Below, in pieces: positions 1 to 11,780 of a stretch of DNA of 11,780 nt (position 1 is the first letter of the stretch; each line of letters opens with the position of its first letter). This DNA comes from Acidimicrobiia bacterium (lineage in GTDB: Bacteria > Actinomycetota > Acidimicrobiia > Acidimicrobiales > AC-14). The position numbers and the translations under genes were made by a program. The stretch is from NCBI GenBank assembly GCA_019243595.1, contig JAFAUA010000028.1, positions 1 through 11,780 of the forward strand, given 5' to 3'. A model generated the notes under the pieces. That model worked only from the letters and a program-made list of their open reading frames with translations. It had not been told where the DNA came from and did no database searches.

Positions 1-1505
1 GCGAGACGGGGGCCGGGAAGACGCTTCTCGTCGAAGCGATCGAGCTGCTGGTCGGCGGACGGGCCGACGGCGTGCTCGTACGCAGGGGTGCCGACGAAGC
101 GCGCGTCGAGGGCCGGTTTGTGGTCGATGATGACGAGCGGGTGCTCACTCGCGTCGTGCCGGCCCGCGGGCGTTCTCGGGCCTACGTCGACGGACGTATG
201 GCGACGGCGGGTGAGCTGGCGTCGATCGGCGCCGAGCTCGTCGACCTGCACGGTCAGCACGCCCACCAGTCGCTGCTGGCGACCGCCGCCCAGCGCCACG
301 CCCTCGACCTCTTCGGCGGCATCGACCTGGCACCGCTGGTCGCGGCCCGACAGGCCGTTGTCCAGATCGACGCCGCGCTCGCCGCCCTCGGCGGCGACCC
401 CCGGGCCCGGGCACGCGAGCTGGATCTTCTGCGGTTCCAGCTCGCGGAGATCGACGCCGCGGGGATCTCCGACGCCGGCGAGGAGCAGGCGCTCGAGGCC
501 GAGGAGGAGGCGCTGGCCGGCGCCCAGGCCAACAGGGATGCCGGATGGGCGGCCCACGCGGCGCTCACCGACGAGGCCGGGGCCGTCGATGCCCTCGGCA
601 CCGCGCTCGCCGCCCTGGCTGGGAGCGGCGTGTGGACAGCCATGGAGGCTCGACTGCGGGCGGTGAGTGCCGACGTCACCGACATCGCCGCCGAGCTTCG
701 ACACGCGGCTGAGCAGATCGCCGAAGACCCCGAGCGCCTGGAGGCCGTGCGGGCCCGCCGTCGACTACTGGCGGACGTCCGCCGCAAGTACGGTGAAACG
801 CTGTCCCACGTGATGGCCTACACGGTGGAAGCACGCAGCCGGCTCGACGAGTTGGTAAAGCACGATGAGCGCGCACTGACGCTCGATCGCGAGCGCGCCG
901 ATGCGCAGGCCCAGGTGCAGGCGATCGCCGGCACGGTTGCTGACGCCCGCCGCCGCGCCGCCCCGTCACTGGCGACGGCGGTCGAGGGTCGCCTGCAGGA
1001 ACTGGCGCTGGCCGGCGCCCGTTTCGACGTCTCGGTGGGCGGCGAGGATCCGGCTGACGACGTGGAGTTCCTGCTGGGGCCGAACCCGGGCGAACCGCTT
1101 CTCCCGCTCGCCAAGACGGCGTCCGGTGGCGAGCTGGCGCGCGCCATGCTCGCGGTGCGACTGGTCCTCACCCAGGGCCCACCCACGCTCGTTTTCGACG
1201 AGGTCGATGCCGGTGTCGGGGGAGAGGCGGCAGTGGCGGTCGGGCGGGCCCTCGCGGCCGTCGCCGACGATCACCAGGTGCTGGTCGTCACGCACCTCCC
1301 TCAGGTGGCGGCCTTCGCCGACGAGCAGGTCGCCGTCACCAAAGAGGAGAAGGACGGACGCACGATCGCCTCGGCCCAGGTTGTGCGCGAAGGCGAGCGC
1401 GTCATCGAGCTGTCCCGCATGTTGTCGGGCCAGCCGGCGAGCGCGGCCGCCCGTGGCCATGCCGAAGAGCTGCTCGCCGCCGCGTCGCGCCAGCGGAGCC
1501 ACTGA
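1..1505 (+). CDS. recN: DNA repair protein RecN, 5' end missing
   Basis: RecN is an SMC-like ATPase that acts at DNA double-strand breaks in the cytoplasm. About 500 codons are visible, in frame from base 3, and the window opens inside the Walker A motif (E-T-G-A-G-K-T, bases 3-23). Family lengths of about 550-590 residues suggest that only some 30-50 residues are cut off. Other landmarks are the RecN-typical G-Q-H-A-H-Q-S-L-L near bases 250-278, a long charged helical middle (about 400-950) fitting the coiled-coil arms, the ABC signature S-G-G-E-L-A-R near 1120-1142, and Walker B with the D-loop (T-L-V-F-D-E-V-D-A-G-V-G-G, about 1185-1225), then V-V-T-H-L-P-Q-V-A. A GTG at base 72 is not the start, because the Walker A motif lies upstream of it. 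The stop TGA overlaps the steA ATG by one base, so the two genes are probably co-transcribed and coupled. The family call is secure. Confidence 0.97.
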   Translation, partial: ETGAGKTLLVEAIELLVGGRADGVLVRRGADEARVEGRFVVDDDERVLTRVVPARGRSRAYVDGRMATAGELASIGAELVDLHGQHAHQSLLATAAQRHALDLFGGIDLAPLVAARQAVVQIDAALAALGGDPRARARELDLLRFQLAEIDAAGISDAGEEQALEAEEEALAGAQANRDAGWAAHAALTDEAGAVDALGTALAALAGSGVWTAMEARLRAVSADVTDIAAELRHAAEQIAEDPERLEAVRARRRLLADVRRKYGETLSHVMAYTVEARSRLDELVKHDERALTLDRERADAQAQVQAIAGTVADARRRAAPSLATAVEGRLQELALAGARFDVSVGGEDPADDVEFLLGPNPGEPLLPLAKTASGGELARAMLAVRLVLTQGPPTLVFDEVDAGVGGEAAVAVGRALAAVADDHQVLVVTHLPQVAAFADEQVAVTKEEKDGRTIASAQVVREGERVIELSRMLSGQPASAAARGHAEELLAAASRQRSH

Positions 1506-2647
1506 TGGCCGCCCAGCGACGGCCCGCGGACTCGGATCGGTCGGTCGTGGGACCGGCGCGTGTCGACGCCCGCACCAAACGCCTCACCCGTCGCCTGCAT
1601 CCGGGCGACATCGCCGTCATCGACCACGAAGACCTGGACCGAATCGCCGCCGAGGAGCTCGTCGAGGCCCGGCCGGGCGCCGTCATCAACGCCGCGGCGT
1701 CGATCTCGGGCCGCTATCCGAACGTCGGTCCGCTGTTGGTCGCCGCCGCGGGCATCCCGCTCATCGACGATGTGGGCCGCGAGATCATGGAGCGGGTGCG
1801 CGACGGGCAGGTGCTGCGCGTCGACGGTGCCGAGATCAAGCGTGGCGACGATGTCATCGCCAAGGGTGTCCCACAGACCTTGCAGTCGCTGGAGGAGAAG
1901 CTCGAGGCCGCCAAGCGCGCCGTCGGTGACGAGCTCGAGCGCTTCGCCGAGAACACCCTCGAGTACCTCCGCCAAGAACGCCACCTGCTGACCGACTCGC
2001 CCAACCTGCCCGACGTCGCCGTCGATCTTCGCGACCGTCACGTCCTCGTCGTCGTCCGGGGCCTCGACTACCGAGCCGACCTAGCTGCGCTGCGGAGCTA
2101 CATCAGCGACATGCGCCCGGTGCTCATCGGCGTCGATGGGGGAGCGGACGCCCTGCTCGAGGCCGGCTACCGCCCGGACATCATCATCGGCGACTTCGAT
2201 TCGGTGTCCGAGCGCGCACTGGAGACCGGCGCCGAGCTCATCGTGCACGCCTATCCGGGCGGCCACGCGCCGGGCGCCCAGCGTCTGGAACAGCAGGGTC
2301 GCGACTACCTCGTGTTCGAGGCGGCCGGGATGAGCGAGGACATCGCCCTCCTCCTCGCCTACGAGAAGGGCGCCGAGCTGATCGTCGCCGTGGGGACGCA
2401 TGCGTCGGTGGTGGAGTTCCTCGACAAGGGTCGGGCGGGCATGGCGTCGACGTTCCTTGTCCGGCTGAAGGTCGGCCCTGTGCTCGTGGACGCCAAGGGC
2501 GTGAACCGGCTGTACCGCACACAGCTCCGACGCAGCGACATGGTCTTTCTGGTCGGCGCCGCGTTGTTCGCCATGCTCGTCATGGTGATGGTGGCTGAAC
2601 CCCTGCGTCTGGTCCTGCGCGGGTTCTGGTTCGTCCTCGGGCGGTAA
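1505..2647 (+). CDS. steA: SteA-like cytokinetic protein with thiamin-pyrophosphokinase-like fold
   Basis: This 380-residue protein matches the SteA family. In Corynebacterium glutamicum SteA and SteB are reported to work together to stimulate the septal peptidoglycan hydrolase RipA during cell separation. The N-terminal part has the family-typical run V-D-x-R-T-K (20-25) and P-G-D-I-A-V-I-D-H (33-41), then I-S-G-R-Y-P-N (67-73). Residues about 125-160 look coiled-coil. Residues 209-235 carry a thiamin-pyrophosphokinase-like motif, G-V-D-G-G-A-D ... G-D-F-D-S-V-S. One membrane helix lies near 346-365 with a short basic tail, which suggests a cytoplasmic protein anchored by its C-terminus. The ATG is supported by overlap with the recN stop and by a GGAG at 1495-1498 with a 6-nt spacer. 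SteB follows after a 6-nt gap, the usual pairing. Older annotations call this family a thiamin pyrophosphokinase; a true TPK role is unlikely. Confidence 0.92.
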   Translation: MAAQRRPADSDRSVVGPARVDARTKRLTRRLHPGDIAVIDHEDLDRIAAEELVEARPGAVINAAASISGRYPNVGPLLVAAAGIPLIDDVGREIMERVRDGQVLRVDGAEIKRGDDVIAKGVPQTLQSLEEKLEAAKRAVGDELERFAENTLEYLRQERHLLTDSPNLPDVAVDLRDRHVLVVVRGLDYRADLAALRSYISDMRPVLIGVDGGADALLEAGYRPDIIIGDFDSVSERALETGAELIVHAYPGGHAPGAQRLEQQGRDYLVFEAAGMSEDIALLLAYEKGAELIVAVGTHASVVEFLDKGRAGMASTFLVRLKVGPVLVDAKGVNRLYRTQLRRSDMVFLVGAALFAMLVMVMVAEPLRLVLRGFWFVLGR

Positions 2648-2653
2648 CGAACC

Positions 2654-3604
2654 GTGCTCAACCTCAGGTATCACGTGGTGTCGTTGGTGGCCGTGTTCCT
2701 GGCCCTCGGCGTCGGGGTGATCATGGGCGCGACGGTCATCGATCGCGTGACGGTCGATCAGCTCCGGAACCGCCTCGACGGCGTCGAGGCCGCCGACCGC
2801 AAGACGCGCTCGGATAACGACCGGCTCTCGGCCCAGATCGCCACCTGGAACAAGTTCGCTGACCAGGGCCGCACCGAGCTTCTCTCCGACCAGCTGCAGA
2901 ACGTGCCTGTGCTGCTCGTCGGGGTCAACGGCATCGATCGCAAGTCCGTGTCGGACCTGAGGTCGCAGCTGGCCACGGCCGGGGCGAACGTCGAAGGCAC
3001 CCTCTGGCTGACGGACAAGCTCAATCTGAATAGCCAAGGCGACGCCACCGCGCTCGCCGCCTCCATCGCCATTCCCGACGCCACGCCCGACATCGCACGT
3101 GCCGCCGCCCTCTCGAAGCTGGCGGAGGCCCTGGACCGCGGCAGCGATCCAACCGGCATCATCGCCGCGCTCCACCAGGGCGGCTTCCTTGACTACGAGG
3201 CGCCACCCGTACCGGCGTCGACCTCGTCGTCCACGCCCACGTTCGGGCTGGACACCATCCCCGTTCGTGGAACGCGGGCGGTGATCATTTCGGGGGCGGG
3301 CGCCCGCCTCGACGACGAAACGATGACCATGCCGTTCGTCACCCAGCTGGCCCTCAACGACACGCCTGTGATCGCGGCCGAGGCCGGCCGGGACACGCCC
3401 GGAGGGCGCGACGTGTTCGTCGGTGTCATCCTCCGTCACCCGGAGACGGCGTCGCGCATCTCGACCGTCGACAACCTCGAGTCGTTCATCGGGCAGGCCG
3501 CCGCCGTGCTCGCCCTTCGCGACATCGGCAAGCAGCCGCCCAACCACTACGGCGTCGGTCCCGGCGCCCAGCGGCTTCTCCCCGAAACGCCGTCAACGCC
3601 TTGA
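2654..3604 (+). CDS. steB: SteB / MctB-family membrane-anchored protein
   Basis: The 316-residue protein belongs to the family known as MctB in M. tuberculosis (linked to copper tolerance and described as an outer-membrane channel) and as SteB in corynebacteria (partner of SteA in septal hydrolase control). The start is typical: M-L-N-L-R-Y-H-V-V-S-L-V, running into one membrane helix at about 8-28. A short coiled coil (about 33-70) follows, then an exported alpha/beta region. A Pro/Ser/Thr-rich linker lies at 184-196, and the family-type ending Q-A-A-A-V-L-A-L ... N-H-Y-G-V-G-P-G-A is at 281-305. Length matches the family (about 310). It uses GTG at 2654 with only a weak G-rich ribosome site upstream. 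Position next to steA favours the cytokinesis role. Nothing in the sequence shows a copper site or a beta-barrel. Databases may label it copper transporter. Confidence 0.9.
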   Translation: MLNLRYHVVSLVAVFLALGVGVIMGATVIDRVTVDQLRNRLDGVEAADRKTRSDNDRLSAQIATWNKFADQGRTELLSDQLQNVPVLLVGVNGIDRKSVSDLRSQLATAGANVEGTLWLTDKLNLNSQGDATALAASIAIPDATPDIARAAALSKLAEALDRGSDPTGIIAALHQGGFLDYEAPPVPASTSSSTPTFGLDTIPVRGTRAVIISGAGARLDDETMTMPFVTQLALNDTPVIAAEAGRDTPGGRDVFVGVILRHPETASRISTVDNLESFIGQAAAVLALRDIGKQPPNHYGVGPGAQRLLPETPSTP

Positions 3605-5211
3605 ACGCGTCGGTGACAGACGAGCAGGCCGTCGACCTCGACGCCGGCCTCCTACGGTCCACGGCGTCGATCACCGCCGGCAACGTGGCCTCGCGCGTCA
3701 CCGGGTTCGTGCGCGTCATCGCCGTGGGCGCCGCACTTGGCACGACGTTCCTCGGCAACACGTACCAGACGTCGAACCTGGTTTCGAACATCCTGTTCGA
3801 GCTGTTGGCCGCCGGCCTTCTTTCGTCAGTGCTTGTCCCGACCTTCGTCCGCTTCATCGACGCCGGCCAGCGCGACGACGCCGAGCACGTGGCGGGCGCC
3901 GTCCTCGGAGTGTGCCTCGTCGCCCTCGGGGCCGTACTGGCGATCGGGCTCCTCCTGCGGCCGTTGATCATGCGCCTGCTCACGGTTGCCGTGTCCGATC
4001 CCGGCGTACGTCGCCAGGAGGTCGCACTCGGGTCGTTCCTCCTCTGGTTCTTCCTGCCTCAACTGCTGCTCTACGCGGCAGGAGCGGTGGCCACCGCGCT
4101 GCTCAACGGCGCTCGCAAGTTCACGGCGCCCGCCTTCGCGCCCGTCGCCAACAACGTCATCGTGATCGCGACGATGGGCGCCTTCTGGGCGCTGCACGGG
4201 TCGGGCGGTGGTCTCGGCCTCAGCGTCGGCGAACGGCTCGTGTTGGCCATCGGCACCACTAGCGGTGTGCTGGCGATGACGGCGGTGTCCTTCGTCGCCG
4301 CGTGGCGCGCCGGCTTGCGCGTCCGCCCCCACTGGGACCCGCGCCATCCGGCGGTGCGCGCCCTGGCCCGCCCCGGCGCGTGGGCCGTCGGCTTCCTTGC
4401 TATGAACCAGCTGCTGATCGCGGTGACCCTCGTGCTGGCCAACCGGGTCGCCGGCGGCGTCGTCGCCTACCAGATCGCCTACACGTTCTTCCTGTTGCCG
4501 TACGCCATCCTCGCCCAGCCCATCATGACGGCGCTGTTCCCGCGCCTGTCGTCTGACGCCGTGGCCGAGCGCTGGGCCCGGTTCTCCGGCACCGTGACCG
4601 ACGGCGTGCGATTCGTCGCCTTCCTCGTGCTTCCCGCCACCGCGCTCATGGCCGCCCTGGCGAGGCCAGTGCTCGAGGTCATGCAGGTCGGTGCCCTCAA
4701 TGCCGCCGGCGGACAGCTGGTGGCGCGCGTCGTCGCCGCCTACGCCGTCGGTCTCATCGGCTGGTCGGCGCTGCAGCTGCTCACCCGGGCCTCCTACGCC
4801 GCCGACGACACGCGCACGCCGACGCTGGTCGCCGTCGGTCTGACGGCGCTTGGTTGCGGGCTGATGGTCTGGTGGTTCGCACGGAGCTCGGGTGACAACC
4901 GCGTCGTCGTCCTCGGGCTGGCGTATTCCACGGCGATGGTGGCCGGGGCAGCTGCGCTCCTGGTGCTTCTCGGCCACCGCATCCGCCGTTCTCTCCCGGT
5001 CGGCGTCGCACTGGTGCGCAGCATGGTGTGTGCAGGCGCCGCCTACGGCGCGGCTCGACTCGTTGTCGAACTGCTTCCCTCGTCGACGCGCGCCGAAGCG
5101 GCGCTCACGGCCGTCGTCGGGGCCGCACTCGCGGTCGCCGTGTACGCCGGCCTCCAGTGGGCGGCGCGGGCGCCCGAGTTCAAGGGCATCCCCTCGGAGG
5201 GCCAGGCGTGA
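3601..5211 (+). CDS. murJ: MurJ/MviN-family lipid II flippase
   Basis: MurJ moves undecaprenyl-linked peptidoglycan precursor across the cytoplasmic membrane. This protein has up to 536 residues and about 14 hydrophobic segments, as expected. Family landmarks are N-V-A-S-R-V-T-G-F-V-R (28-38; R32 and R38 align with E. coli R18 and R24), L-F-E-L-L-A-A-G-L-L-S-S-V-L-V-P (65-80), A-L-L-N-G-A-R-K-F-x-A-P-A-x-A-P-V (166-182), Y-Q-I-A-Y-T-F-F-L-L-P-Y (290-301) and A-L-F-P-R-L-S (311-317). By ungapped alignment the positions of E. coli D39, R52 and E57 are N53, F66 and A71, so the first-half cavity charges differ. The start is uncertain: TTG at 3601 overlaps the steB stop by 4 nt (TTGA), while GTG at 3613 would remove four residues; neither has a clear ribosome site. 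Mycobacteria keep murJ elsewhere, so its place here links it to SteA/SteB and the downstream glycan genes. Confidence 0.93.
   Translation: MNASVTDEQAVDLDAGLLRSTASITAGNVASRVTGFVRVIAVGAALGTTFLGNTYQTSNLVSNILFELLAAGLLSSVLVPTFVRFIDAGQRDDAEHVAGAVLGVCLVALGAVLAIGLLLRPLIMRLLTVAVSDPGVRRQEVALGSFLLWFFLPQLLLYAAGAVATALLNGARKFTAPAFAPVANNVIVIATMGAFWALHGSGGGLGLSVGERLVLAIGTTSGVLAMTAVSFVAAWRAGLRVRPHWDPRHPAVRALARPGAWAVGFLAMNQLLIAVTLVLANRVAGGVVAYQIAYTFFLLPYAILAQPIMTALFPRLSSDAVAERWARFSGTVTDGVRFVAFLVLPATALMAALARPVLEVMQVGALNAAGGQLVARVVAAYAVGLIGWSALQLLTRASYAADDTRTPTLVAVGLTALGCGLMVWWFARSSGDNRVVVLGLAYSTAMVAGAAALLVLLGHRIRRSLPVGVALVRSMVCAGAAYGAARLVVELLPSSTRAEAALTAVVGAALAVAVYAGLQWAARAPEFKGIPSEGQA
5196..5200 (+). promoter_or_regulatory. 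Shine-Dalgarno site fixing the start of the GT2 fusion gene
   Basis: GGAGG lies inside the last codons of murJ, 7 nt before the GTG at 5208. The reading frame stays open further upstream to 5028, but this site, the 4-nt overlap with the murJ stop (GTGA) and the fact that the glycosyltransferase fold begins directly with T-V-V-A-V-V-A-A-R-N-E make 5208 the likely start. Confidence 0.8.
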
Positions 5212-8141
5212 CCGTTGTGGCTGTCGTGGCGGCGCGCAACGAAGCGGCGACGATCGGGCCCACCGTCGCCGCCCTCCTCGGGCTGTCCGAAGTCGACCGG
5301 GTGCTCGTCGTCGACGACGCATCCCACGACGACACGTCGGCCGAGGCTCGGGCCGCGGGTGCGACCGCCCTGCAGCTGCCGCGCAACCGGGGAAAGGGTG
5401 GCGCGGTTTCCGCCGCCATCGAGCACACGCCCGACGCCGACGTCTATCTCCTGATCGACGGAGACGTCGGTGCCAGCGCCGCCGCGGCGCGCACCCTGCT
5501 CGGACCGGTGCTGAATGGCGCGGCCGACATGACGATCGGCGTCCTTCCGGCCGCGGGCGGGCGCGGCGGCTTCGGTCTCGTCCGCGATCTCTCGGCGGCA
5601 GGTGCGGCCCGGGCGACGGGCTGGCGACCCGAGTCTCCGCTCTCGGGGCAGCGAGCCGTGCGGGCCGAGGTGCTGCGATCGGTCGATTTGGCCCCGGGAT
5701 TCGGCCTGGAGACGGCGCTCAACATCGACGCTGTCCGGGCCGGCGCCCGCGTGCTCGAGGTACCGGTCGTGATGGAGCACCGCCACACCGGGCGGGGGCC
5801 GCGCGGCTTCGCCCACCGCGCCGCCCAGGGCGTCGATGTGGTGCGCGTCCTCTGGTCCCGGCTGACCTCGTCCACGCTGCGGAAGGCGGTCATCGTCGCG
5901 GTCACCGTCCTTGCCCTGGCGCTGGCCCTGTGGTCGGGGAGCCGCTGGGAGCCGACGAGCGTGGCATCAACAGCACGCGCTGACAAGGTCGTCGTGTTCG
6001 GGATGCCGGGGTTGGCCTGGTCCGACGTCGGTAAAGGAAGCCTGCCCAACCTCGACCGGCTCGTGCGCGGCGGCGCAGTGGCGGCCATGAGCGTCCGCAC
6101 CCTGTCACACGATCCGGCGATCGCCGAGGGGTACGCCACCCTCGGTGCGGGTGATCGCGTCGCCGCATCGGGCATCGGCGGAGGCGCTTACGATGCCGGC
6201 GCTCCGCTGGAGAACGGGACGGCGGCCGAGGCTCTGGCTCGGCGGGTCGGTCGGCCGATCGCCGGCGAGGTCGTCGTGGTCGACGGGCCGGCGACGGTGC
6301 GGGCCAACCAGGGGAAGCACCTGTCAAGCCTGCCGGGGGCCCTGGGTGAGGCGATGGGCCATGCGGGCCGGAAGACCGCTGCGGTCGGCAACGCCGACAT
6401 CGGCGCCGTCGACGGGCGCCAACCTGTGGTGTCGCGCCCCGCGGCGGTCGCAGTCATGAACGGCGCGAGTGCGGTCGACCACGGCGCGGTCGAACCGGGC
6501 GACGTGCTCGTCGACGACCCCTCCAGTCCCTTCGGTGTCAAAGGGGCGGCGGACAAGATCGTCGCCGAGACCACGACAGCACTGCAGGGCGCCGATCTCG
6601 TCGTCGTCGACACGGGCGACGTCGAGCGGGCCGCGGCCGTACGTCGCGACGCCCTCTCTGCGGTGGCGTCACGAGCCGATCGCCAGGCGTTGATTCACAC
6701 CGACGAAATCCTCGGGCAGGTTGAGCGGAGTCTCCCGCCCCGCACGCTCCTCCTGGTTGTCTCCGTCGTCCCGCCCGGTCAGAAATGGCACCTGACGCCC
6801 GTTGTTGCATCGGGCGCGGGAGTCGTCAAGGGCTACATCCAGTCGGAGTCGACCCACCGCCTCGGCCTGGTCACGCTCACGGATGTGGCGCCCATGGTCT
6901 TGGACTCACTCGGAGTTCCCGTGCCCGACGGCATGGTCGGTCATCCGCTGCGGTACCACGAGGGTTCCGTCGACCTCGGCCGACTGGCGAGCCTCGACCG
7001 CGACGGCACGACACGCGACTCGATCTATCCCGGGATCGCGCTCGGCCTCGTCATCCTGCACGCCGCTGTGTACCTGGTAGCCGCGTTCCTGCTCTCACGG
7101 AGGGAGGCCGGCCGCAGCGAGCCGTTCCTGCGCTACGGCGTGTTGGCGATCGCCGCCCTTCCTGTCGCCACCTTCCTCGTGAAGGCGCTGCCCCTCAATG
7201 GCGCCGCTTCGCTCCCCGTCATGTTCGGCGTCGACGCCATCATCGTCGCCCTGGCCGGTCGTGCCCGTAGGCATCCACTCAGCCCTCTGGCATGGGTGAT
7301 GGGCTTCACGGCGGTCGTACTCATGATCGACGTGGCCACTGGGGCCCGGCTGCAGGTGAACAGCGTGCTCGGCTACTCACCGCAAACGGCCGCTCGATTC
7401 TTCGGGATCGGCAACCCGGCGTTCGCAGTGCTGTCGGCGACGGGCATCCTTTTCGCCGCCATCCACCTGCAGTACGCGCCGAGGCGACGTGAAGCGCTTC
7501 TGACGGTGACGGGCTTCCTCATCCTGCTGATCATCATCGACGGCGCCCCGACTCTCGGGGGCGACGTGGGTGGGATCCTGACCCTCGTCCCGGTCATTGG
7601 TCTGACACTCGTCGCCTTCAGCGGTCGACGCATCTCGGTGAAGACGATCGCCGTCCTGGCTGCACTCACGGTGGCGGTGCTCGGCGCTGCTCTTCTCGTC
7701 GACGTGCTGCGCCCGCCGCAGGCCCGGACGCACCTCGGCCAGCTCTTCACCAATGTCCACCAGAGCGGGGGGTCGTCGTTCATGACGACCGTGCTTCGCA
7801 AGATTGGCACCAACCTCCGCGTTTTGCGGGGAACGGTGTGGTCGTGGCTCGTGCCGATCATCGCCGCCTTCCTCTTGTACCTGCTGATCTGGGAGCGCCG
7901 GCTGGGACGGCTCCTGCCCCGAGGGTCGTCCCTGCGCGTCGGTGTGATTGCGGCCCTGGGCGCGGGCCTCTTGGGGTTCGCGGTCAACGACTCGGGTGTC
8001 GTCATCACCGCCCTCGTGTACCTCTACCTCGGGCCGTACCTGACGCTGCTCGCCCTCGACGCCCAGGAGCCCGCGCCGGAGCTCCTCGAGCCGGTCGTGC
8101 CTGCCCGCGCCGGTCGGAGCGTCAGTGCCAGCCGCCGATGA
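5208..8141 (+). CDS. GT2 glycosyltransferase fused to an alkaline-phosphatase-like domain and a polytopic membrane domain
   Basis: This 977-residue protein has three parts. Residues 1-215 are a GT2 glycosyltransferase: A-A-R-N-E (8-12), V-V-D-D-A-S (34-39), G-K-G-G-A (62-66), the metal-binding D-G-D (84-86), S-G-Q-R-A (146-150), likely catalytic E168 in G-F-G-L-E, and H-R-H-T-G-R (191-196). A membrane helix at about 226-243 leads to residues 258-585, which follow the alkaline-phosphatase/sulfatase fold (P-N-L-D-R-L at 280-285, L-T-P-V-V at 529-533, T-D-V-A-P-M-V-L at 558-565, G-H-P-L at 578-581). Its usual metal ligands look lost. Residues 608-951 hold about 10-11 membrane helices with N-S-V-L-G-Y, R-F-F-G-I-G-N, G-A-P-T-L-G-G-D and N-D-S-G. 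No stop separates the parts, though GTG codons at residues 211-212 could restart translation. The gene overlaps murJ and the MraY-like gene by 4 nt each. The role is inferred: transfer of sugar to a lipid carrier or envelope polymer. Donor and acceptor cannot be read from sequence. Confidence 0.85.
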   Translation: MTVVAVVAARNEAATIGPTVAALLGLSEVDRVLVVDDASHDDTSAEARAAGATALQLPRNRGKGGAVSAAIEHTPDADVYLLIDGDVGASAAAARTLLGPVLNGAADMTIGVLPAAGGRGGFGLVRDLSAAGAARATGWRPESPLSGQRAVRAEVLRSVDLAPGFGLETALNIDAVRAGARVLEVPVVMEHRHTGRGPRGFAHRAAQGVDVVRVLWSRLTSSTLRKAVIVAVTVLALALALWSGSRWEPTSVASTARADKVVVFGMPGLAWSDVGKGSLPNLDRLVRGGAVAAMSVRTLSHDPAIAEGYATLGAGDRVAASGIGGGAYDAGAPLENGTAAEALARRVGRPIAGEVVVVDGPATVRANQGKHLSSLPGALGEAMGHAGRKTAAVGNADIGAVDGRQPVVSRPAAVAVMNGASAVDHGAVEPGDVLVDDPSSPFGVKGAADKIVAETTTALQGADLVVVDTGDVERAAAVRRDALSAVASRADRQALIHTDEILGQVERSLPPRTLLLVVSVVPPGQKWHLTPVVASGAGVVKGYIQSESTHRLGLVTLTDVAPMVLDSLGVPVPDGMVGHPLRYHEGSVDLGRLASLDRDGTTRDSIYPGIALGLVILHAAVYLVAAFLLSRREAGRSEPFLRYGVLAIAALPVATFLVKALPLNGAASLPVMFGVDAIIVALAGRARRHPLSPLAWVMGFTAVVLMIDVATGARLQVNSVLGYSPQTAARFFGIGNPAFAVLSATGILFAAIHLQYAPRRREALLTVTGFLILLIIIDGAPTLGGDVGGILTLVPVIGLTLVAFSGRRISVKTIAVLAALTVAVLGAALLVDVLRPPQARTHLGQLFTNVHQSGGSSFMTTVLRKIGTNLRVLRGTVWSWLVPIIAAFLLYLLIWERRLGRLLPRGSSLRVGVIAALGAGLLGFAVNDSGVVITALVYLYLGPYLTLLALDAQEPAPELLEPVVPARAGRSVSASRR

Positions 8142-8989
8142 CTGACGCGGCCCGGGACATCGTCGGCTTCGCGGCGGCCGGCTTGGCCGCGGGCATCGTC
8201 CTTCGCGTCCTCATGCGCCCCGTGCTCGAGCTCCCACTCCTGGCTCGGGAGAACTACCGCGGGGTCCGCGTCGCAACCGCCGCCGGACTGGTTGTCGTGC
8301 TCGCAGCCGTGTTCGTGGAGGGGACGAGGGACATCCTTGCCTCATTTGGCGCCGGCCATCAGGTGACGCCGGCCCGCGGTCTGGTCCTGTTCACCACCCT
8401 GGGCTTCGGCCTCCTCGGTCTCCTCGACGACCTGATCGGCAGCGGCCACGCCCGCGGTTTCCGCGGACACGTGGGCGAGCTTGCCCACGGCCGCCTCACG
8501 ACCGGCGGGATCAAGCTCGTGGGCGGGGCGGCACTGGCGATCGTCCTGGCCGGCGCCACCGACGGCAACGCCCCGGCCCGGGTGCTGACCGACGCCGCCC
8601 TGATCGCCCTGGCCGCCAACCTGGCCAACCAGCTCGACCGCCGGCCGGGTCGGGTCGCCAAGGTCGCAGTACCCGCGTTCGTCGCCCTCGCCGCCACCGC
8701 GACCTACGGCGACTATCTGGAGGGTGTCGCCGTCGTCATCGGCTCCACCGCGGCGTTGTTCGTCGACGACCTTCGTGAGCGGCTCATGCTCGGCGACACG
8801 GGTGCCAACGTCATCGGCGCGGCGTTGGGCGCGGGCGTCGTGTTCTCGTTCCCGTTCGACGTGCGCGTCGGCGTGCTCGTCGCGGTCGCCGTCCTCAACG
8901 TCGTCGGCGAGCTGAGCTCGTTCACCCGGCTGATCGACAAGGTCCCGCCGTTGCGGGCACTCGACCGAGCCGGCCGGATCGACCCCTAG
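8138..8989 (+). CDS. MraY/WecA-superfamily phosphosugar transferase-like protein
   Basis: The 283-residue, highly hydrophobic protein resembles polyprenyl-phosphate phospho-N-acetylhexosamine transferases, which build lipid-linked sugars on the cytoplasmic membrane face. Visible motifs are the Asp pair in G-L-L-D-D-L-I (D97-D98), G-F-R-G-H (107-111), R-L-T-T-G-G-I-K (119-126), N-L-A-N-Q-L-D-R-R-P-G-R (161-172, where MraY/WecA enzymes have N-x-x-N-x-x-D-G-x-D-G) and L-G-D-T-G-A-N (218-224; D220 matches the catalytic Asp of M-G-D-x-G-S). The ending K-V-P-P-L-R-A-L-D-R-A-G-R replaces the histidine-rich loop of true MraY. It is shorter than MraY (about 320-360). ATG at 8138 overlaps the previous stop (ATGA); no good ribosome site is seen, so translation is probably coupled. 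It is not the main MraY, and the sugar is unknown. The superfamily is likely; enzymatic activity is probable but unproven. Confidence 0.82.
   Translation: MTDAARDIVGFAAAGLAAGIVLRVLMRPVLELPLLARENYRGVRVATAAGLVVVLAAVFVEGTRDILASFGAGHQVTPARGLVLFTTLGFGLLGLLDDLIGSGHARGFRGHVGELAHGRLTTGGIKLVGGAALAIVLAGATDGNAPARVLTDAALIALAANLANQLDRRPGRVAKVAVPAFVALAATATYGDYLEGVAVVIGSTAALFVDDLRERLMLGDTGANVIGAALGAGVVFSFPFDVRVGVLVAVAVLNVVGELSSFTRLIDKVPPLRALDRAGRIDP
8986..8989. other. CTAG palindrome serving as stop codon on both strands
   Basis: The plus-strand MraY-like gene ends with TAG at 8987-8989. The minus-strand 87-codon gene ends with TAG read from 8988 down to 8986. The two converging genes therefore overlap by exactly the four bases CTAG, with no room for a terminator between them. 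Confidence 0.9.
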
Positions 8990-9249
8990 CGGTTCCGGGG
9001 GCGCAGCCGTTCGAGGAGTGGCTTCTTGCCGGCCTCGAGGTGGCGGCCGTCGAGGAATCCGACCTCGACGCCGTTGTCGAACAACACCCGGTAGCGGCGC
9101 CAAGCGAAGCCATCCACCAGGAGGACTGTGCCCTCGGTGCCGGCAGGCACCTTGGCCAGGTCGACTTTGGCCTTGACCCGCTGACGGAGGATGAGGTCGA
9201 TCTCAGGCGGCAGCTCGCCCGCCAGCTTGTGCTTGTCCCAAACGGCCAT
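8986..9249 (-). CDS. Small conserved-looking protein of unknown function, 87 aa
   Basis: I do not recognise a characterised family. The protein begins M-A-V-W-D-K-H-K-L-A-G-E-L-P-P-E-I-D and continues with alternating hydrophobic and charged stretches (V-K-A-K-V-D-L, G-T-E-G-T-V-L-L-V, W-R-R-Y-R-V-L-F-D-N-G-V-E-V-G-F-L-D) before a basic tail ending L-R-P-R-N-R. This pattern suggests a small beta-barrel of SH3/KOW type, perhaps nucleic-acid or protein binding; that is only an inference. It has no signal peptide or membrane helix. Most codons end in G or C, as in the neighbouring genes, which supports real coding. The reading frame is open further upstream to 9429, but that part overlaps pyrG codons and lacks coding character, so ATG at 9249 is chosen. 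No ribosome site is visible; a TACCAT hexamer 9 nt upstream fits a leaderless or nearly leaderless message. Confidence 0.72.
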   Translation of the reverse strand: MAVWDKHKLAGELPPEIDLILRQRVKAKVDLAKVPAGTEGTVLLVDGFAWRRYRVLFDNGVEVGFLDGRHLEAGKKPLLERLRPRNR

Positions 9250-11491
<2,242 letters not shown>

Positions 11492-11495
<4 letters not shown>

Positions 11496-11780
11496 ACGTC
11501 GGCGTTCCCGCCGAGGTGAAGGAGGGGGAACGCAGGGTCGCCATCACGCCCGACGGGGTGCGCGAACTGACGACGTCGGGACATCAGGTGCTGATCGAAC
11601 GGGGCGCGGGCGAGCAGTCCGCCATCACCGACAACGAGTACACCAAGGCCGGTGCGTCGATCGTGTCGGTCGACGACGCATGGGCCGCCGACCTGGTCGT
11701 CAAGGTCAAGGAGCCGCAGTCGTCGGAGTACGGCTACCTGCGTTCCGACCTCGTCCTGTTCACCTACCTGCACCTGGCGG
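11492..11780 (+). CDS. ald: Alanine dehydrogenase, 3' end missing
   Basis: Ald interconverts L-alanine and pyruvate plus ammonia with NAD. Only the first 96 residues (of about 370) are in the window, ending at the right edge. They follow the family closely: M-N-V-G-V-P-A-E-V-K with R15 in E-R-R-V-A-I-T-P, V-L-I-E-R-G-A-G (33-40), V-K-V-K-E-P (70-75) and F-T-Y-L-H-L-A (90-96). R15, K73 and H94 match the substrate-binding R15, K75 and catalytic H96 of the M. tuberculosis enzyme after a two-residue shift. GTG at 11492 overlaps the Nudix stop (GTGA), so the gene is probably translated from the pyrG transcript. In M. tuberculosis ald is elsewhere in the genome. The related nicotinamide nucleotide transhydrogenase alpha subunit shares this fold, but the local motifs fit Ald better. 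Confidence 0.93.

Follow-up and report, generated by a model that had tools for sequence, protein, structure and literature searches.

A glycosyltransferase–AlkP-like–membrane protein fusion encoded beside steA and steB in an Acidimicrobiales bacterium

In the 11,780-nucleotide stretch analysed here (the window: contig JAFAUA010000028.1, positions 1 to 11,780, from an uncultured actinobacterium, an Acidimicrobiia bacterium of the order Acidimicrobiales), one open reading frame at 5208..8141 runs through 977 codons without a stop and encodes a 977-residue protein with a GT2 glycosyltransferase domain, an alkaline-phosphatase-like (AlkP-like) domain and a polytopic membrane domain. All window features given below with coordinates lie on its strand (+). 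Is this fusion genuine, and what might such a protein do beside steA and steB, the genes of SteAB, a system that controls cell separation? A sequence-only reading of the window had proposed the three-part frame, and homologues bear it out: the frame is open and its architecture conserved. The fusion is genuine. We give slightly less than an even chance to the reading that it also has a single origin and couples the inner with the outer half of a lipid-linked glycan pathway whose genes stand with those of the SteAB division system.

The fusion and its origin

Of 120 listed homologues (from 604), 116 are longer than 930 aa, the length above which proteins (117 of 121) were taken into the homologue comparison. 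At 1e-40 the protein is matched, over all or part of its length, in 88 of 298 genomes of the order. Among these 298, a single alignment extends from residue 39 or earlier to residue 949 or later in 32 genomes (two with one internal TGA), and five further genomes give two alignment segments in an open frame of equal length. The fused architecture also occurs in 17 of 80 loci, which come from many projects. One might instead suppose that a sequencing or assembly error at the open junction has joined two genes, since the window comes from a draft genome (81% complete, 597 contigs) and since in one metagenome-assembled genome (locus L072) the GT2 and the core, i.e., AlkP plus membrane domain, do not share a frame near the junction. 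However, the same architecture in independent homologue records contradicts an assembly artefact and leaves such an error with a negligible probability. Nor do all close relatives have two genes, which the sequence-only reading had named as the pattern that would speak against a fusion. The same reading had allowed that the second half might be made alone from GTG codons at residues 211-212; we reject a separate internal start.

A tree of the membrane domain (quick method, with support from the Shimodaira–Hasegawa-like approximate likelihood-ratio test, SH-aLRT, only; 87 of 139 rows used) places all 20 fused rows inside a clade of 23 on a starred branch (100). The clade's other three rows are L072 and two GT2-less paralogues from the window's own genome. 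The tree therefore requires three state changes. A single gain with two losses would account for them, although the tree cannot itself separate gain from loss. On these sequence comparisons, the fusion probably had a single origin. Two observations weigh against the sequence-only interpretation: the frame change in L072, and the GT2-less paralogues, which show that the halves can part again.

The L072 frame change could be either a sequencing error or a true break. Three GT2-less core paralogues occur in the window genome (L002:1492-3687, L003:1429-3510 and L004:1-1695), the first two adjoining LytR-CpsA-Psr genes; they are altered at N736, D778 and D786, which fused proteins keep. In one fused protein, L010 (G274:C38), the alignment skips approximately residues 323-484, and part of the AlkP domain is perhaps missing.

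The domains and their conserved residues

The structure model of the fusion scores 94.2 in predicted local distance difference (pLDDT) and 0.92 in predicted template modelling (pTM). Its first part is a cytoplasmic GT-A domain (GT2/GT81-like; 5208..5870, residues 1-221) which reaches 47.6 bits with the Pfam GT2 profile, above the cut-off of 23.3. The predicted GT-A fold has its motifs intact: in 16 sequences D84 and D86 (motif D84-G85-D86, 5457-5465) are invariant and E168 is present in at least 90%, so the D-x-D and the later acidic residue are both kept. Like GpgS (GT81), AglJ, ArnC, GtrB and dolichol-phosphate mannose synthase, it is a GT-A enzyme by likeness, but here the domain is joined to an AlkP/membrane protein. 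The NCBIfam models for GpgS (53.5 bits, cut-off 262) and AglJ (84.9 bits, cut-off 325) were not reached. A linker membrane helix follows (5871..5945, residues 222-246), with a best 19-residue hydropathy of 2.21 and a helix in the model.

The AlkP-fold ectodomain (5976..6968, approximately residues 257-587) has the AlkP core fold in the predicted model. We mapped its metal site through alignments to nucleotide pyrophosphatase and phosphoglycerate mutase, with the canonical ligand identities: the first metal Asp falls on P267 and the Asp-His pair on approximately 519-523. Conservation was assessed in 151 of 188 sequences (identical rows removed, matches of at least 600 residues only), comprising 21 fused, 100 unfused actinobacterial-type and 30 distant sequences. 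Position 267 is Pro in 19/21 fused and 78/100 unfused sequences, and Asp in 23/30 distant ones. At positions 520 and 521 (V520-V521 in the window), Asp and His are outside the four commonest letters in every set, and Ala predominates at position 475, four residues after D471, in place of an expected His. Some features speak for a site that is not entirely dead: 30/30 distant sequences keep D471, 21/100 unfused sequences have Asp at 522 and 6/21 fused ones have His at 528. Overall, the AlkP-fold part is probably inactive, judging from these replacements. The earlier label "phosphatase-like" thus fits the fold, whereas phosphatase chemistry, with most metal ligands lost, is probably the wrong function.

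An active phosphatase was rejected as the likeliest role, because P267, V520-V521 and A475 replace ligands. The fold is that of the alkaline phosphatase superfamily (iPGM, NPP, PafA, sulfatases), but most of the canonical metal ligands are replaced here. Glycosylphosphatidylinositol (GPI) ethanolamine-phosphate transferases, EptA and LtaS likewise have an AlkP domain beside a membrane domain, and these enzymes require an intact metal site. Given the residues found at 267, 475 and 520-521, it is very improbable that the domain works, in the way of EptA/LtaS, as an active phosphatase or transferase of phospho groups.

The membrane domain (6969..8066, residues 588-953; 11 hydrophobic helices) is far stricter than the AlkP site. 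Across the 151 sequences, R730, G733 and G784 are each found in 151, H842 in 149, N736, R864 and D928 each in 148, N927 in 147 and K865 in 142. In the predicted topology, the conserved Arg, His, Arg-Lys and Asn-Asp residues lie on outer loops: R730 (codon 7395..7397) in R-F-x-G-x-G-N, H842 (7731..7733) in T-H-L-G, R864-K865 (7797..7802) on an amphipathic outer helix (residues 855-875) which H842 just precedes, and N927-D928 (7986..7991) in N-D-S-G. The transferase is thus predicted inside and the conserved cluster outside, in agreement with the earlier suggestion of sugar transfer on the cytoplasmic side and a second step outside or in the membrane.

We modelled the membrane domain alone because fold searches with the whole model did not cover it. 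Its ten best VIA entries are WaaL, RodA (five entries), FtsW (two), AftA and ALG3, all lipid-linked glycan enzymes, with weak Z. WaaL and RodA/FtsW (GT-C_B) are the best solved matches, and PMC10449877 describes, for RodA and WaaL alike, an amphipathic helix on the outer side that carries a conserved Arg, and for WaaL a catalytic His. The membrane domain has a predicted outer amphipathic helix with Arg/Lys and a predicted outer His, which may correspond to these; it differs in carrying an AlkP ectodomain and a GT2 fusion. Foldseek gave best E-values of 0.2 and 0.21 against the PDB and a viral library. Profile alignments to Wzy_C, FtsW/RodA, MurJ, GT87 and PNPT (phospho-sugar transferase) sets, which left out one Wzy_C row and three FtsW/RodA rows, led nowhere; the Wzy_C scores (16.0 global, 27.4 local) are close to those of the reversed control (19.2 and 26.5) and so give no evidence for a relationship. 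Pfam has no match for the core of the window copy, and over 17 core sequences it matched nine families in one to five members each (best E 0.00065, Phosphodiest, two members).

Gene neighbours and relatives

The gene order in the window is recN (cut), steA, steB/mctB, a murJ-like gene, the fusion, a MraY/WecA-like PNPT gene and pyrG. Upstream of the fusion and in its direction lie steA (1505..2647; NF040608 486 bits, cut-off 150) and steB/mctB (2654..3604; PF11382 163 bits), followed by the murJ-like gene (3601..5211; PF03023 E 3e-63, with TIGR01695 at 217.9 bits just below its cut-off of 235.55). The fusion's GTG start, preceded by GGAGG, overlaps the murJ-like stop, and its own stop overlaps the ATG of the PNPT gene (8138..8989). 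PF00953 finds the latter at E 7.8e-4 and 19.9 bits, below the cut-off of 27, and its motif residues D97, D98, N161, N164, D167, G219 and D220 are invariant in 61/61 aligned sequences.

The core is present in 96/296 Actinomycetota genomes, 39/148 of the class, and 139/199 of the phylum of G417 (genome of locus L114; Firmicutes bacterium UBA3943, Bacillota per NCBI). Besides the fused cases, the 80 loci include 19 in which, at the steAB/pyrG locus, a GT-B gene adjoins the core, 13 with the core adjoining GT87 genes (a separate GT2 in 12 of them), and 29 with no glycosyltransferase partner found, in some of which the contig ends there. In the other two, GT2 is out of frame with the core (L072) or is a separate divergent gene (L099). 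Gene labels came from hidden Markov models built for this analysis, which distant genes may escape. In L145, L146, L147 and L163, recN-steA-steB-GT2-GT-B-core-PNPT-pyrG are all separate genes. The earlier expectation that GT2 and AlkP-like membrane proteins near steA/steB are usually separate is therefore correct for most relatives there. In the distant phylum, a GT-B gene adjoins the core in 12 of 20 longer stretches (L180-L199).

Only the GT2 part is matched in 11 genomes of the order, and all six of these that were read have steB, GT2, PNPT and pyrG but give no hit to the core. Since GT2 without core and core without GT2 both occur, the two need not be paired. The window's GT2 domain shares 41-50% identity with 11 stand-alone GT2 proteins. 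The neighbours of two Nocardiopsis-type loci showed no evident glycan gene. One further alignment took 90 of 134 chosen rows.

Several other arrangements were seen. GT2 and PNPT without a core hit stand at the steAB/pyrG locus in L219, L220, L221, L222, L225 and L226 (Acidimicrobiales-order). A second setting of the core, away from steAB, is GT87–core–GT87–GT2 (L110, L112, L115, L118-L121, L123, L125, L132, L136 and L144) in Streptosporangiales, Thermomonosporaceae and Intrasporangiaceae-type genomes; near the core in L112 and L118 is what we take to be a prephenate-dehydratase-like gene. Two core copies stand in tandem within a single open frame of approximately 1490 aa in L196 (G560:C13) and G441:C1, and the steAB/murJ-type loci L097, L122, L127 and L229 have two core copies without a GT2/GT-B hit. 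Between core and separate GT2 in L099, a frame at approximately 12160-12920 carries motifs resembling those of calcineurin-type metallophosphoesterases.

A possible glycan pathway beside SteAB

The genes that accompany the core suggest that lipid-linked glycans are assembled beside SteAB, and the separate GT2, GT-B or GT87 genes adjoining the stand-alone protein favour this. In the mechanism we propose, PNPT would prime by loading a sugar phosphate onto polyprenyl phosphate; the cytoplasmic GT2 domain would extend this lipid-linked sugar or make a polyprenyl-phosphate sugar; and the MurJ-like protein would flip it. Outside, the membrane domain with its conserved cluster may transfer or polymerise the sugar, like O-antigen ligases and RodA/FtsW, while the AlkP-fold ectodomain probably holds or positions substrate. 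Tool results provide the fusion, predicted folds and topology, conservation and gene partners, from which we infer the substrates, step order, transferase chemistry and ectodomain role. GT87 enzymes use polyprenyl-phosphate mannose, so GT87 partners speak for prenyl-phosphate sugars. PNPT partners speak for prenyl-pyrophosphate ones, and the evidence does not choose between the two.

The membrane domain could instead be a flippase or transporter for the GT2's lipid-linked product, with the AlkP fold receiving that product outside. It is polytopic with invariant polar residues on one face, transporters are also among the weak Foldseek matches, and four f31 loci that have GT2, GT-B and PNPT lack a murJ hit, so another flippase could be needed there. 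However, a murJ-like gene is adjacent in the window, as it is in many relatives, and the ten best VIA entries include no transporters, so we consider this role unlikely, though worth keeping in mind. A non-catalytic role as scaffold or regulator, positioning the products of the glycan genes, or SteAB, at the division site, would suit the operon with steA-steB, the degenerate AlkP site and the protein's dispensability in some relatives. We consider it improbable, as the charged outer residues (R730, for instance) are strictly conserved across two phyla, and as the protein also occurs away from steAB, adjoining GT87 genes.

The reading we prefer is an outer transferase coupled to an inner one. 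Of the sequence-only interpretation, the conserved fusion, the mostly split steAB relatives and the two-sided topology stand, while phosphatase chemistry and the internal start do not; a new envelope-glycan enzyme remains plausible as a putative assignment. Searches of an open-licence library turned up no paper that describes this protein or gene set. PMC6705760 and PMC12977500, in the parts available, treat steA/steB distribution and a steA-steB fusion and not the glycan genes adjoining them.

Of greatest interest is the uncharacterised core, together with its link to SteAB. In the window copy this core has no Pfam match, yet it is widespread in Actinomycetota and the G417 phylum. The fusion suggests a coupling of two steps in the assembly of cell-wall sugars for which related bacteria use separate proteins. 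More tentatively, the AlkP-like/membrane protein may found a family, widespread and apparently not yet described, of transferases that act on lipid-linked glycans at the outer face and have a dead AlkP substrate holder, and steA-steB-murJ-GT-core-PNPT may be a whole division-serving glycan pathway in Actinomycetota, its inner and outer transferases fused in Acidimicrobiales. If so, SteAB would gain a partner glycan pathway, outer-face transferases would gain a family, and the fusion would directly show which inner step goes with which outer one.
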